Assembly: GCF_000504085.1 (NCBI RefSeq)
Contig: NC_022792.1
Coordinates: forward strand, 930,001-994,000
Length of the DNA stretch: 64,000 nucleotides
Direction of reading: 5' to 3'
Source: Pseudothermotoga elfii DSM 9442 = NBRC 107921
GTDB lineage: Bacteria; Thermotogota; Thermotogae; Thermotogales; DSM-5069
The position numbers and the translations under genes are program-made. Numbering within the stretch: position 1 is the first letter of the stretch; every line of letters starts with the position of its first letter. Below are positions 22,134 to 28,001 of this stretch, one piece after another. Under the pieces are notes generated by a model. The model made no database searches, had not been told where the DNA came from, and worked only from the letters and a program-made list of their open reading frames with translations.

Positions 22134-22924
22134 AACCCTCAGCAGTGATTTATTATCGGAACGACAAAGAAAAAGAAGCGAGAAATTTATCTCAAAAGAT
22201 AAGTTCACACATACTGATTAACCAGATTTGCCAGGCTGAAGAGCAAGTGATTTCTAAAGGGTGCGATTTTGTCATAGTTGTAGGTGGAGATGGAACAGTA
22301 ATAAAAGTCGCAAAGTTCACTACATGTCCTATCATTGGATTCAAGGCAGGTAGAGTTGGATTTCTTGCATCGTATAAACTTGAGGAAATAGATAGATTTC
22401 TCAAAGATCTATCGCAACAGAGATTGTTGATGGAAAAAAGATTCATGCTGACAGTGAAGGTAAATGAAGTAGATTATGATGCGGTAAATGATGTCGTTTT
22501 TCATCTTCCTTCAAGACGAATGGGAGAATTCAGGCTGTCTTTTGACGGATGCAGCGATTTACTATTTTTTGCAGACGGGATACTTATATCGACTGCAACA
22601 GGTTCAACTGCTTATAATCTATCTCTCGGAGGAGCTATTGTCACACCAGTGAGCGAGGTTATTCAAATTATGCCCATTGCTCCGTACTATTTGCAGAACA
22701 GGAGCATTGTCGTCCCAAATGAGCAAAGGATTACAGTTGATACTCTTGACATCTGTGAAGTAATTGTTGATGGCGTGATTGTGGGAAAGGTGAACTCTAT
22801 TACTGTGCAAAAATCGAACAAGCATTTCACTTTACTCAGACCCGATTATTATGATTTTTTTGCTGTGCTGAAAGATAAAGTTGGCTATGGAAAGGGTGTT
22901 ACAAATGAAGTGGATCGTGGATGA
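22130..22924 (+). CDS. nadK: NAD kinase
   Basis: Phosphorylates NAD+ to NADP+. 264 residues, normal for bacterial NadK. Motifs: VVGGDGTVIKVAK (GGDGT), GFLASYKLEEID, and DGILISTATGSTAYNLSLGG. The TTG start overlaps the yggT stop (TTGA). The last 20 bases overlap the PhoU-like gene. Confidence 0.94.
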   Translation: MKPSAVIYYRNDKEKEARNLSQKISSHILINQICQAEEQVISKGCDFVIVVGGDGTVIKVAKFTTCPIIGFKAGRVGFLASYKLEEIDRFLKDLSQQRLLMEKRFMLTVKVNEVDYDAVNDVVFHLPSRRMGEFRLSFDGCSDLLFFADGILISTATGSTAYNLSLGGAIVTPVSEVIQIMPIAPYYLQNRSIVVPNEQRITVDTLDICEVIVDGVIVGKVNSITVQKSNKHFTLLRPDYYDFFAVLKDKVGYGKGVTNEVDRG

Positions 22925-23609
22925 AAAGATGGAACTTTTTAGAAAGGCTCTCATGAAAATGGGATGGTATACTGAAAAGATGTTTTTGAATGCGATAGAG
23001 GCTCTTGAAAATAAAGACTCAAAATTGGCCAAACAAGTAATAGAAGATGACAACGTTTTGGACGGAATGGAAATTGAACTGAGAGAAGAAGCCGCGGTGA
23101 TGATGGGCATTCATACACTTATTGGCTCTCGGTTGAGATTTGTAGTTGGCAGTATTCAGCTTGCCAATATCTTTGAACGTATTGGTGACAACGCAAGGAG
23201 AATATCGCAAATTACCATCACTTTACTTAGGGAACAACCTCTGAACACCTCAGGCATTTTAAAGTTGGGAAAATTGACTTCGAATATGTTGAAAGAAAGC
23301 ATCAGACTGCTCGCAGATTTACAACCGGAAGGGGCTTTTGTGATATGTTCAAAAGATGCCGAAGTCGACGAACTATATCAGGAAATCAGAAGCGAACTTT
23401 TGAATTCCATTAGAAATAAACCAGATCAAATAGAGAAAAATATGCTTCTCGCAGAGATTGCTCAACGAATAGAGGAAATTGCGGACCTTTCAACAAATGT
23501 TGTTGAGACAGTTTTATATATAGTTACCTCAGAAGCTTATAAATGCTTTCGCGATGAAATGAAACTTTTTAAGCAAAGCGAAGGTGTTCTGTTTGGGAAT
23601 ATTGACTAA
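22905..23609 (+). CDS. phoU: PhoU-like phosphate regulatory protein
   Basis: About 234 residues forming two repeated three-helix bundles. Repeat 1 has AIEALENKDSKLAKQVIEDD with VGSIQLANIFERIGDNARRI; repeat 2 has AEVDELYQEIRSEL and AQRIEEIADLSTNVVE. The E/D-x-x-x-D metal-site pattern ERIGDNA and EEIADLS is present. PhoU proteins damp phosphate uptake signalling; no Pst genes are here, so the role may be broader. ATG at 22905 was chosen for its GAAAGGG site; GTG 22917 and ATG 22929 are alternatives. Confidence 0.82.
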   Translation: MKWIVDEKMELFRKALMKMGWYTEKMFLNAIEALENKDSKLAKQVIEDDNVLDGMEIELREEAAVMMGIHTLIGSRLRFVVGSIQLANIFERIGDNARRISQITITLLREQPLNTSGILKLGKLTSNMLKESIRLLADLQPEGAFVICSKDAEVDELYQEIRSELLNSIRNKPDQIEKNMLLAEIAQRIEEIADLSTNVVETVLYIVTSEAYKCFRDEMKLFKQSEGVLFGNID

Positions 23610-26600
23610 ATATATAATCAAACTTTCTGTGGGCCCTATGCTCATAGGCCTTGCGGGATTTGTTATTTTTGTCAGTGTTGAGATACTTTATCAACTATCT
23701 GATTTGATAGTTCGACATAGAGTTGGAATATTTGTTTTGCTGAAAGTTCTGTATTATTACCTTCCATATTTTGTGGCACTTGGGATTCCTGTTGGCATTC
23801 TGCTTTCAATATTCTGGGTTCTTTCACAGCTTTCAACAGATCATGAATTAATGGCATTGCAAGTTCATGGAATATCATTAAAAGTTTTGATTGTTCCTTT
23901 TTTGATATTATCAATAGCTTTGAGTTTTGTGACTTATGTACTGAGCGATAGAATAGTACCTTTGTACAATCAAAAGGCAGACAGTGTGATTTCGAAATAC
24001 GTCTATAAGAGACCTGAAGTATTTATAAGCGAAAATGTTCTAACAAAAATTGATGAGAGCCAGTATTTCTATGTAAAGAAGTACGACAGACAAAATGGGA
24101 TTCTTGAGGATGTAGTGCTTTTCAGAAATGAACCTTCTGAGGAGGAGATAATAACAGCAAAAAGGGTTGTTAAAGAAAAAAACAAATGGTTCATGTACGA
24201 TGGGAAAATGTACAGAGTTGATAAAGATGGTGTGCTGAGATTTGATATCAGTTTCAACAAAGTTGAGCTTGACCTTCAGGAAGATATAGAATCTATAATG
24301 CGCGTCGGCAAAACGCCAAAGGATATGAGAAGCGAGGAACTCAAGGAGCGAATAGACACTTTCAAAAAACTTGGAGTGGATCCAGCCCCGTGGATTGTGG
24401 AACTTCACACGAGATATTCGCTTTCGCTCGGGCCAGTGATAATTGTGCTTGTTGGAATTCCTCTTTCACTTATGTTCAATCTCAAGAGCAAATCATGGGG
24501 TGTGATACTGACATTTGTTATAGTCGTTTTGTATCAGGGTAGTGGAGCGTGGCTTGGCGCTATGGGAAAAGAGAGGCTGGTTGATCCAGTCACTTCGGCA
24601 TGGATGCCGAACACGATTTTTGGTGTAACAGGTGCTCTGCTCTTTTTACTCCTCGATACACCTGCCAGCTATAAAATAAAGGAAAGCCTTTCCAAGTTGT
24701 TTCTTATAGCTGTACTTTTAATTTCTTCGGTTACATTTTCTTCACAACTTCCAAATTTAACTGTGACTGCGAGTTCAGTAACTTACGATGCAACTTCACT
24801 AACATTCTCAGGAGATGTGATAGCGACTTTCAAAGAATCTCAAATTCAATGTGAATCTCTCACAGTTTATATAAACGATAAGGGTGCAGCAGAGAAAGTT
24901 TTTGCCTGCCAGGATGTCATATACAGAAAAGAAGATACACTTATCAAATCAAATACACTTTTATATACATTTTCAACTGAACATATGCTTCTTGCAAAAG
25001 TAAAAGGAGAGACAATCTACACCGATGAAGAAAAAGTTGAACACAAAATTTATTTTTATGGTAATACTATGCAAAAAGATCAGTCAGAATACGAAATAGA
25101 AAGAGGATATTTGACAACATGTGAGCTTGATCATCCACATTACAGGTTGCAGGCTTTGAATGTTGAATTAAAAGAAAATGAATATCTTGCTGCATATAAC
25201 GCAATATTTTATATACTTGATATTCCTACAATTTACTTACCTGTTTATTTTGTATCACTTAAAGATGGTCCTCAACCATTCGCGGTAAGATTTGGCTACT
25301 CGAAGGACGAGGGATTATCATTTGAAAGTGAATACAACGTTACATTCAATGATGGTAGCATAGGAGCAAAAATAGGATGGATTGAATCGGGTTCTGAAAA
25401 TGGGAGGTACGCGCAATTTGATTTGCAAAAGAAATGGAAGGATTTCAAGATAGATTCTTCTTACTATGTTCGCCAGCCACTGGATCAATCAGAAATTGAA
25501 TACAGCCTTGATAGTGTTTTTTCCTATTCGAGTGGTATTTCAACAAAAATGAGGATGCTTTTTACAGATGAAAAGAGCTATATCTATTATCAGATTTCAC
25601 CGATTAAGGAACTTTCTCTGGAACTTTCCAGATTGAGAACTTCTAATAGCGTGTACTGGGTCCTGCCATATATTACGTTGAAAAAAATATCTCTCTCTGC
25701 CTCACCTTTTTCTCTCAGTGTGAATTCTTTTTACCACAGAAGTACTGTCGAATATTCAGAAGGTTCATTGCTTGATCACCTGAAAGAAATTGACAGTCTT
25801 GGAAAACTTAACGCGACGCTTTCAATCAATCTTCCATCGCCATTCTCAACCTTTACGACGAGTTTCACGGGTTTTTATGAGATTGAGCAAATGAACTTCA
25901 CAGAGAAAACCTACCTTTTGATAGATTCGAAATTGCCTCTGAAAACGGCGAGATTTTCTCTCGCATGGATGGATTTATCTGTTACGAATAATATTTATTC
26001 TGGTGTCCGGTTATCTATTAATAAAGACCCGGCTTATAGAATAGCCGATGTTTTTGAAGCCGGATTGACACTTAAGCCATTGAATTTTTTGAGTTTCTCG
26101 ACGACATATTCCCGAACAGGTGTTCTTTCAAATGATATCTATTCTGGTTTTTCAAATTCTGAAGATGAATCTGAACTTCAGTTTCTTGCCAAGTTGAATG
26201 TGCCTACAACCTTGTTTCAATTTTCCACAACTTATGATTTACTCAATCGACAGTGGGATGATTTGATATTCAAGACGAGTACGGCATTCAAATTAGGATC
26301 AGTCGGCTTTGCCTTATACAGTAACACTGTGTACAAAACCCTCAGCGAAAAATTGTACAAAACTGATTTTGATTTCAATGTTTCCTACAAGACCCTGAAA
26401 CACACAACAGAATTTACCTGCTACTATGGAGAGCAAACACCCGTTGATTTTATTACAAATACATTGACGATAAAAGGAATGGATTTTTTCTTTATGAAAA
26501 ATCCAGATTTGAAAATCATTTATAAACTCACTCCATGGCCAGTGGATCTGCTGTCAGTAGAAGCAAAGGGTAGTTTCTATGTTGATGAAACCAGGCATGA

Positions 26601-26901
26601 ATTTTCAGGTTTATACATAAAAAGCTCTTCAAGATTTAGAATCTCTTACGATTTCTCAGGTGCAGATCCATCTTTTGGAGTTTTTCTTGATCTCTATACT
26701 GATTCATGGACCGTGGAAAGTTTTGATGTTACAGTCAAGAAAGATCTTCACTGCTGGGGTTTAATTTTCGAGGGGCAGTTTTCTGCAGACCCGGCTTTTT
26801 CTGTTGAAAAATTGGCGTTTAAATTTTATATAAAAGAATTCCCAAAAAAGAGTTTTACTGTAGATCCCGTTACCGGTGATTTCAATATGGACGTCTTTTG
26901 A
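23584..26901 (+). CDS. LptF/LptG-like permease fused to OstA/LptD-like outer-membrane module
   Basis: An 1105-residue fusion. Residues 1-370 are YjgP/YjgQ (LptF/G): six membrane helices, the DHELMALQVHGIS loop and RYSLSLGPVIIVLVGIPLS. Residues about 370-387 form another hydrophobic stretch (LFLIAVLLISSVTFSS) resembling a signal peptide. From about 390 an OstA/LptA-like region begins (SSVTYDATSLTFSGDVIAT). Then comes an LptD-like segment (TTCELDHPHYRLQALNVELK, AYNAIFYILDIPTIYLPVYF) and about 550 residues of alternating aromatic/polar strands typical of a beta-barrel. It may join transport of an envelope lipid from inner to outer membrane. The start could be GTG 23584, TTG 23593 or TTG 23602. 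Confidence 0.85.
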   Translation: MFCLGILTKYIIKLSVGPMLIGLAGFVIFVSVEILYQLSDLIVRHRVGIFVLLKVLYYYLPYFVALGIPVGILLSIFWVLSQLSTDHELMALQVHGISLKVLIVPFLILSIALSFVTYVLSDRIVPLYNQKADSVISKYVYKRPEVFISENVLTKIDESQYFYVKKYDRQNGILEDVVLFRNEPSEEEIITAKRVVKEKNKWFMYDGKMYRVDKDGVLRFDISFNKVELDLQEDIESIMRVGKTPKDMRSEELKERIDTFKKLGVDPAPWIVELHTRYSLSLGPVIIVLVGIPLSLMFNLKSKSWGVILTFVIVVLYQGSGAWLGAMGKERLVDPVTSAWMPNTIFGVTGALLFLLLDTPASYKIKESLSKLFLIAVLLISSVTFSSQLPNLTVTASSVTYDATSLTFSGDVIATFKESQIQCESLTVYINDKGAAEKVFACQDVIYRKEDTLIKSNTLLYTFSTEHMLLAKVKGETIYTDEEKVEHKIYFYGNTMQKDQSEYEIERGYLTTCELDHPHYRLQALNVELKENEYLAAYNAIFYILDIPTIYLPVYFVSLKDGPQPFAVRFGYSKDEGLSFESEYNVTFNDGSIGAKIGWIESGSENGRYAQFDLQKKWKDFKIDSSYYVRQPLDQSEIEYSLDSVFSYSSGISTKMRMLFTDEKSYIYYQISPIKELSLELSRLRTSNSVYWVLPYITLKKISLSASPFSLSVNSFYHRSTVEYSEGSLLDHLKEIDSLGKLNATLSINLPSPFSTFTTSFTGFYEIEQMNFTEKTYLLIDSKLPLKTARFSLAWMDLSVTNNIYSGVRLSINKDPAYRIADVFEAGLTLKPLNFLSFSTTYSRTGVLSNDIYSGFSNSEDESELQFLAKLNVPTTLFQFSTTYDLLNRQWDDLIFKTSTAFKLGSVGFALYSNTVYKTLSEKLYKTDFDFNVSYKTLKHTTEFTCYYGEQTPVDFITNTLTIKGMDFFFMKNPDLKIIYKLTPWPVDLLSVEAKGSFYVDETRHEFSGLYIKSSSRFRISYDFSGADPSFGVFLDLYTDSWTVESFDVTVKKDLHCWGLIFEGQFSADPAFSVEKLAFKFYIKEFPKKSFTVDPVTGDFNMDVF

Positions 26902-27025: not shown

Positions 27026-27038
27026 AGTGGGTGACACA

Positions 27039-28001
27039 ATGAAATTGATTAAATTGCTATTTTTTGTTTTTTCATTTTTTGTCGTTACTTCCTGTGTTGA
27101 AAGTACTATTACTCAAATTGATACGGATCTCATTCGTTATATTGCTGTTGCGTATAATAGGGGTCACAATCTAAGCCTGGAAGAAATCTCCAATCTCATT
27201 AGCGAAATCAGTTATGATGATGATGTACTCATAAATTACATGTACTTTGTCGGAAAGATCAGCCTTGAAGAGCTTTTACAGCAGCGTAAAGAACCTTCGA
27301 TATACGATGAGCGCATAGTTTCATATCTAAAATCCACGTTATCCGAAAACGGATCTTCAGAATTACTGATCATTGATCACTTTGATGAAAATATCCCGGT
27401 TGAAGATCCAGAAGATTTTCTGAATCCGGAAGCTCGCGTGAATGATTCGCTATCTGAAAGAGTTTATGAACTTATAAAATATGATTATTTTTCGAAAGCA
27501 ATGTTTTATCAGTGGTACAAAAAGTTTTATGATGAAGAACTTTCAGAGAGCCAGATTCGTAAATTTGCAGAGTTTCTTGTGAAGGTTGCAGAAGGTTATT
27601 CTTCTCTGACGGTAAAAAAAATAAGCCAAGTTGATTCGGAGTTTTTTCTACAAGAAGTAGATCTTGGATCTGTGCCCACAGAACTTGTGCTTGCAATTGC
27701 CTATGAGGAGTCAAGATTTTTTCCCGCTTCATTTAGATCAGAAATATCTGATGACATCTATGCTATTTCGCTTGGATTAACTCATATACTTCTCGACGCA
27801 GATTCTCTGGATATTTCATCGCAGTACAGTGACATAGGAGATGGAAATAAACGATATTGGACTTTTGAGTTGCTTGCCTTGCATTATTTTGAAGGTTTCT
27901 CAGGAGAAGATCTTCTCCAAATTCGAAGCGCCTTTCTTTTTGCGCGTACTTACCTTAGTTTGATAAAATGCAAGATAGAGTTAGAACTTTGCAAACAATA
28001 A
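27039..28001 (+). CDS. Putative lipoprotein with lytic-transglycosylase-like C-terminus
   Basis: A 320-residue protein. The N-terminus has a lipoprotein signal with lipobox VTSC (Cys17), so it should be anchored in a membrane facing the periplasm. The middle (about 25-205) is acidic and unrecognised. The C-terminal part has VPTELVLAIAYEESRFFPAS then SLGLTHILLD, which resembles the SLT (soluble lytic transglycosylase) pattern of a catalytic Glu followed by a GLMQ-like motif. The usual GLMQ is not kept, so enzymatic activity is doubtful. ATG at 27039 is preferred to GTG at 27027 because it directly precedes the signal peptide. Confidence 0.7.
   Translation: MKLIKLLFFVFSFFVVTSCVESTITQIDTDLIRYIAVAYNRGHNLSLEEISNLISEISYDDDVLINYMYFVGKISLEELLQQRKEPSIYDERIVSYLKSTLSENGSSELLIIDHFDENIPVEDPEDFLNPEARVNDSLSERVYELIKYDYFSKAMFYQWYKKFYDEELSESQIRKFAEFLVKVAEGYSSLTVKKISQVDSEFFLQEVDLGSVPTELVLAIAYEESRFFPASFRSEISDDIYAISLGLTHILLDADSLDISSQYSDIGDGNKRYWTFELLALHYFEGFSGEDLLQIRSAFLFARTYLSLIKCKIELELCKQ

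Follow-up and report, generated by a model that had tools for sequence, protein, structure and literature searches.

A single gene of Pseudothermotoga elfii DSM 9442 raises the question of how an inner-membrane permease and an outer-membrane LptD-like protein come to be made as one chain, and of what becomes of that chain in a bacterium lacking classical lipopolysaccharide (LPS). The gene lies in a 64,000-nucleotide stretch of contig NC_022792.1 (the window, to which coordinates refer unless stated otherwise), where positions 23584–26901 of the forward strand form a single open frame of 1105 amino acids with a GTG start, 0 internal stops and a stop codon at 26899–26901. Its product is ordered as an LptF/LptG permease, a seventh, signal-peptide-like helix and a predicted complete LptD-like protein comprised of a β-taco and an outer-membrane barrel. 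The fusion characterizes the phylum Thermotogota and not a single bacterium, and represents a known machine in a new arrangement that extends phylum-wide. A first-pass annotation of the same DNA had proposed the single frame, its six-helix LptF/G module and a signal-peptide-like helix at about residues 370–387, and all three are borne out below.

The full-chain AlphaFold2 (AF2) model (31 rows; pLDDT 83.4, pTM 0.45) presents the permease helices, the seventh helix at residues 360–380, a low-confidence linker and then an all-β LptD-like region. The permease module occupies residues 1–360 (23584–24663, forward strand). PF03739 (LptF_LptG) is matched on residues 9–355 with 265.8 bits against a gathering cut-off of 27.9 (E 7.3e-79), LptF/LptG chains in the PDB are matched as well, and AF2 predicts six transmembrane helices with a periplasmic β domain (152–229) between the third and fourth. 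Because the scores against the NCBIfam equivalog models of LptF (146.1 bits vs a cut-off of 240) and LptG (144.8 vs 230) both fall short, the module is assigned to the LptF/LptG superfamily only. LptF/LptG proper form a heterodimer of two different permease genes, whereas the PF03739 scan of the P. elfii genome returned one match, and as the only LptF/G encoded there the permease most likely pairs with itself. The module shares with LptF/LptG the PF03739 domain, the six helices, the periplasmic β domain and an LptB in the genome, and differs from them in the single copy, in the scores below both equivalog cut-offs, and in the extra seventh helix and LptD that follow.

The C-terminal part of the chain (C-part) begins with a β-taco of the LptA/OstA fold at residues ~393–558 (24760–25257, forward strand), delimited by VIA-align, hhalign and the sequence alignment, and continues as an LptD-like outer-membrane β-barrel at residues ~566–1105 (25279–26898, forward strand), recognized by AF2, Foldseek, VIA-align and the alignment of its cysteines. 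The AF2 model of this part (32 rows; mean pLDDT 88.6, pTM 0.61) is all β past the first helix except for one short helix. The first 15 matches of the model in a Foldseek search of the PDB are all LptD (best 5iv9, E 8.8e-22), with moderate TM-scores of 0.39–0.47, and rows 1–13 of the VIA-align results are LptD as well (Z 16.3–20.9, rmsd 8–9.4 over 513–557 residues); the LptD matches of both programs cover approximately residues 24–725 of the C-part. The taco itself aligns to LptA (2r1a) with Z 14.1 and rmsd 2.4 over 115 residues. An OstA domain and a separate LptD-like barrel had been proposed initially; the parts were named correctly and the barrel is present in the prediction, but the division was not upheld, as the predicted C-part is one complete LptD-like protein.

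At the level of sequence, LptD_N is matched at residues 394–470 of the window protein with 12.8 bits, below the Pfam cut-off of 20.4, and an OstA call made from this single sequence is weak. Among 42 relatives, 14 match LptD_N at E 0.01, and a profile built from their C-parts matches both LptD and LptA in the PDB (7omm, 2.2e-7; 8h1r, 6.1e-7; 8onu, 1.3e-6), while hhalign aligns it to residues 52–221 of Escherichia coli LptD (E 1.5e-6). The block GYxTTC....PHY...A......P..YL.A.N......P..Y.P.YF.SL runs through the whole alignment. In the window protein, the β-taco ends with the motif TTC...PHY...P..YLP, whose C513 is the counterpart of LptD C173, and a conserved LHCW near the C-terminus bears C1057, the counterpart of C724/C725 of E. 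coli LptD; in the latter protein, C173 lies within FTSC and C724/C725 within SSCCYA, and an inter-domain disulphide joins C173 to C725. The TTC-block cysteine is kept in 42/42 rows and the LHCW-block cysteine in 36/42, and in 19 rows they are the sole two cysteines. The C-part shares with LptD the β-taco and large barrel, the TTC and C-terminal cysteine motifs and the PDB fold match, and differs in being the C-terminal part of an inner-membrane permease, without its own start, in a phylum without LpxC. In genomes of family f9 (loci L014, L017 and L021), the C-parts are ~300 amino acids longer, with frames of 1430–1490 amino acids and the extra sequence placed before the LHC block.

The frame is present in 11/11 genomes of the P. 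elfii family, one draft carrying it as two contig-limited pieces, and is thus the product of neither chance nor assembly error. Across Thermotogota, PF03739 is present in 100/103 genomes and the C-part profile is matched in 103/103 at E 1e-3, some of these matches being weak and, like that of G042, perhaps due to an LptA-like protein only. The comparison of fused and split forms suggested by the first-pass annotation was made by eye from the frames in the permease and C-profile tables: the permease reads into the C-part in one frame in 97 of the 103 genomes (some limited by contig ends), 2 genomes (G015 and G064) have split permease and LptD genes, and 4 (G011, G014, G042 and G065) were left unclassified. 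The junction is in one frame even where the gene bears a frameshift or stop elsewhere (G051, G054, G078 and G093), and in Marinitoga lauensis, whose gene is broken by frameshifts; Athalassotoga saccharophila has the fusion in a frame of 1083 amino acids.

The two splits are independent of one another and fall at the junction. In G064, the permease frame closes directly behind the final helix, and a few bases later an ATG opens MHLRYKSFSPVLFIISLFFIILSGTKVFSA, leading into the LptD part. In G015, an LptD-like gene with an N-terminal signal peptide is located on a different contig from two tandem permeases. Both stand-alone LptD-like proteins have their own signal peptide and both keep the two cysteines. 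The tandem LptF/G genes of G015 (L029, L073) are diverged from one another, and this is the sole genome of the phylum seen with two complete permease genes; the second is apparently a duplication that followed the loss of the fusion. In a tree of 87 permease rows, the 67 from Thermotogota fall into a single group (SH-aLRT 100). This tree, which was made by a quick method and has several long branches, including that of G015, requires 3 changes of the fused state, and one gain with two losses may account for them, the splits being secondary.

Outside Thermotogota, no permease-LptD fusion was seen among the matches listed for 74 genomes, which were drawn from those members of a set of 287 that had a match. 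A frame of 1269 amino acids in G170 was rejected as a fusion, as its upstream portion is open by chance and the permease comes last in the frame. The C-profile was run on 14 stretches from 13 genomes outside the phylum, and in L133, L135 and L137, from other phyla, an LptD-like frame lies directly after LptF/G. The fusion may have arisen from a neighbour operon of this type. A different arrangement, two permease matches in one open frame of ~730–940 amino acids, occurs outside the phylum in L126 (G186), G320, G178, G184, G188, G136 and G124 and suggests LptF-LptG double fusions.

The fate of the fused chain turns on its junction (residues ~361–388; 24664–24747, forward strand), which was placed from hydrophobicity, AF2 and the split sites of the two relatives, and which coincides with the place where those relatives divide into separate genes. 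Here, the positively charged SYKIKESLSK is followed by the hydrophobic segment LFLIAVLLISSVTFSS, which looks like a seventh helix or an internal signal peptide, and then by the linker, of which residues 375–390 have pLDDT <50 in the full-chain model. By hydrophobicity the segment lies at ~365–392, and the signal-peptide-like helix is placed at ~366–383. The stretch preceding the seventh helix bears a net positive charge in 66/66 frames, which fits export of the chain that follows, and a simple signal-peptidase site rule held in 50 of these 66. In some relatives the helix ends with a textbook A-x-A. The hydrophobic run of the seventh helix (median 16) was not separable from those of the permease helices (medians 14 and 20).

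Geometry bears on the same matter. The AF2 model of the window protein leaves ~10 residues between the seventh helix and the first taco strand, and the periplasmic Omp-α rod of Thermotoga maritima has a predicted length of 45 nm (PMC9388160). Such a rod is too long for a ~10-residue linker and one β-taco, which counts for cleavage; the argument is weaker for some relatives with longer linkers, where the TTC cysteine falls at C-part position 144 to 236. Signal peptidase I is encoded in the genome. With the natural splits, whose products have their own signal peptides, this peptidase and the geometry make cleavage, we infer, better supported than the other mechanism offered by the first-pass annotation, a single chain that spans the envelope.

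The genome of P. elfii also encodes the partners that such a system would use. LptB is identified by TIGR04406 at 298.7 bits against a cut-off of 240, the next best score being 187, and BamA is encoded as well. The LptB gene stands directly after a gene for a Skp/OmpH-like chaperone (PF03938) at L117:1498–2681 (contig C1 of the same genome, ~1552040–1553230), a further pairing of envelope-assembly genes. There is one LptA/LptC-like protein, of 215 amino acids, which matches the LptD_N and LptC models; a clearly separate LptC was not found in the genome, where one protein matches both LptA and LptC models. Its gene (L052:8853–10653; C1, ~234850–236650) is located right after that of an Omp-α-like coiled-coil rod of 387 amino acids, and an Omp-α-like frame lies within ~2 kb of the LptA-like gene in 10/15 further loci. 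LpxC was detected in 0/103 Thermotogota genomes and in 4/14 control genomes. This agrees with the initial description of a toga bacterium lacking classical LPS, and in a phylum without LpxC lipid A would not be the cargo. T. maritima produces dihexosyl glycolipids (PMC8788747), and the cargo is most likely a non-LPS lipid, namely a toga outer-membrane glycolipid.

The fused gene probably encodes an Lpt polyprotein, cut at an internal signal peptide to give a permease that pairs with itself and a mature LptD, which together export a non-LPS lipid. The first part would enter the inner membrane and act there as a permease of the LptF/G type, pairing with itself and joined by two LptB ATPases. The seventh helix would serve as an internal signal peptide directing the rest of the chain to the periplasm, and signal peptidase I would cut there to free the mature LptD, which BamA would fold into the outer membrane. 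The LptA/LptC-like β-taco protein, encoded next to Omp-α, would bridge the permease and LptD, and the Omp-α rod would set the width of the periplasm. The FbcH cytochrome b/c1 polyprotein of Bradyrhizobium is built along these lines, with a polytopic membrane protein continued in frame by an internal signal peptide and then by a protein for export, the two being separated by a signal peptidase cut; unlike the LptF/G-LptD fusion, it belongs to a respiratory complex and its product is retained at the inner membrane.

Several observations weigh against this proposal. The window protein is without a clear A-x-A after its seventh helix. When duplicate and short rows were dropped and a shuffle control was added, a signal-peptidase pattern followed the helix in 47/63 rows vs 49.6 expected on shuffling the same residues; with a pattern no better than the shuffle, the cleavage site is unsupported by these statistics. 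That almost all of the phylum has kept the two parts joined could mean that the connection is important in its own right, and MlaD of the diderm Firmicute Veillonella, thought to be an uncleaved chain from inner to outer membrane (PMC10665443), makes tethering possible in principle.

The foremost alternative is an uncut chain, in which the seventh helix would be an LptC-like inner-membrane anchor and the barrel of the same molecule would sit in the outer membrane at contact sites, forming a direct lipid channel. The 97/103 genomes that retain the fusion, a cleavage-site signal that does not rise above the shuffle, and the Veillonella precedent of an inner-membrane protein that carries a barrel for the outer membrane (PMC10665443) all favour it. 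The want of a clearly separate LptC speaks for it as well. A single transmembrane helix followed by a β-taco is, moreover, the layout of LptC. It is set against the ~10 residues from helix to taco in the window protein as compared with the 45-nm rod predicted in T. maritima (PMC9388160), the two lineages in which the link has gone while both proteins persist, and the textbook A-x-A helix ends of some relatives, and seems rather unlikely on balance. Its boldest form, a one-molecule pump and gate at envelope contact sites that would be the phylum-defining lipid exporter of LPS-free cells, is unlikely. It is more improbable by far that the chain in its entirety remains at the inner membrane, its C-part being a periplasmic β structure with another function and no outer-membrane insertion: the low identity of the C-part (20% mean column identity) suits this reading, but the predicted fold is that of a complete LptD, with the cysteines of TTC and HCW conserved, and genes for BamA and a Skp-like chaperone are present in the genome. 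An artefact of frameshift or annotation that joined two neighbouring genes, a possibility raised by the first-pass annotation and easily realized where lptF/G and an LptD-like frame adjoin as in L133, L135 and L137, has a negligible chance of being correct, having been refuted by independent genomes in which the frame is open, across the family (11/11) and the phylum, single-contig genomes included.

Of the flanking genes, the one upstream (22881–23609, forward strand) encodes a PhoU-like protein, as judged from PF01895 and TIGR02135 matches, and its last 26 bases coincide with the first 26 of the fused gene. The two genes are probably co-transcribed, and the PhoU-like protein is outside the Lpt machine. 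The next gene downstream (27027–28001) encodes a putative lipoprotein-like protein of 324 amino acids with a sub-threshold transglycosylase match.

The LptF/G-LptD fusion is unnamed in the literature searched (the text of Putker 2015 excepted), and the main text of a toga proteomics paper does not contain YjgP, permease or OstA as terms (PMC3387000). A study of the Lpt proteins of LPS-less Borrelia states, citing Putker 2015, that T. maritima has Lpt orthologues, and glycolipids are proposed there as the Lpt cargo of LPS-less diderms (PMC10353723). That system resembles the present one in having Lpt proteins in an LPS-less diderm and a proposed glycolipid cargo, and differs in its six separate proteins; a fusion goes unmentioned in the available part of the paper (PMC10353723). 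Diderm Firmicutes likewise have one LptF/G homologue along with OstA proteins, but they make LPS, and LptD was not found in them according to that work, which lists Thermotogae among the phyla without LPS coding capacity (PMC5007114). The elongated MlaD of Veillonella also unites a part in the inner membrane with a barrel in the outer membrane, in one chain devoted to lipid traffic, although with an MCE domain, phospholipids and a chain proposed to remain whole, in place of LptF/G and LptD (PMC10665443).

Thermotogae have been described in a survey as lacking nearly all of the outer-membrane assembly genes examined save bamA (PMC8871954). An LptD hidden behind a permease annotation throughout the phylum alters that count of outer-membrane genes, and is relevant to the question of an ancestral outer membrane. 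It further points to a minimal Lpt set of LptB, one LptA/C and one fused FG-D, with synthesis fixed at 1:1, and puts directly the question of what an Lpt system carries where LPS is absent.

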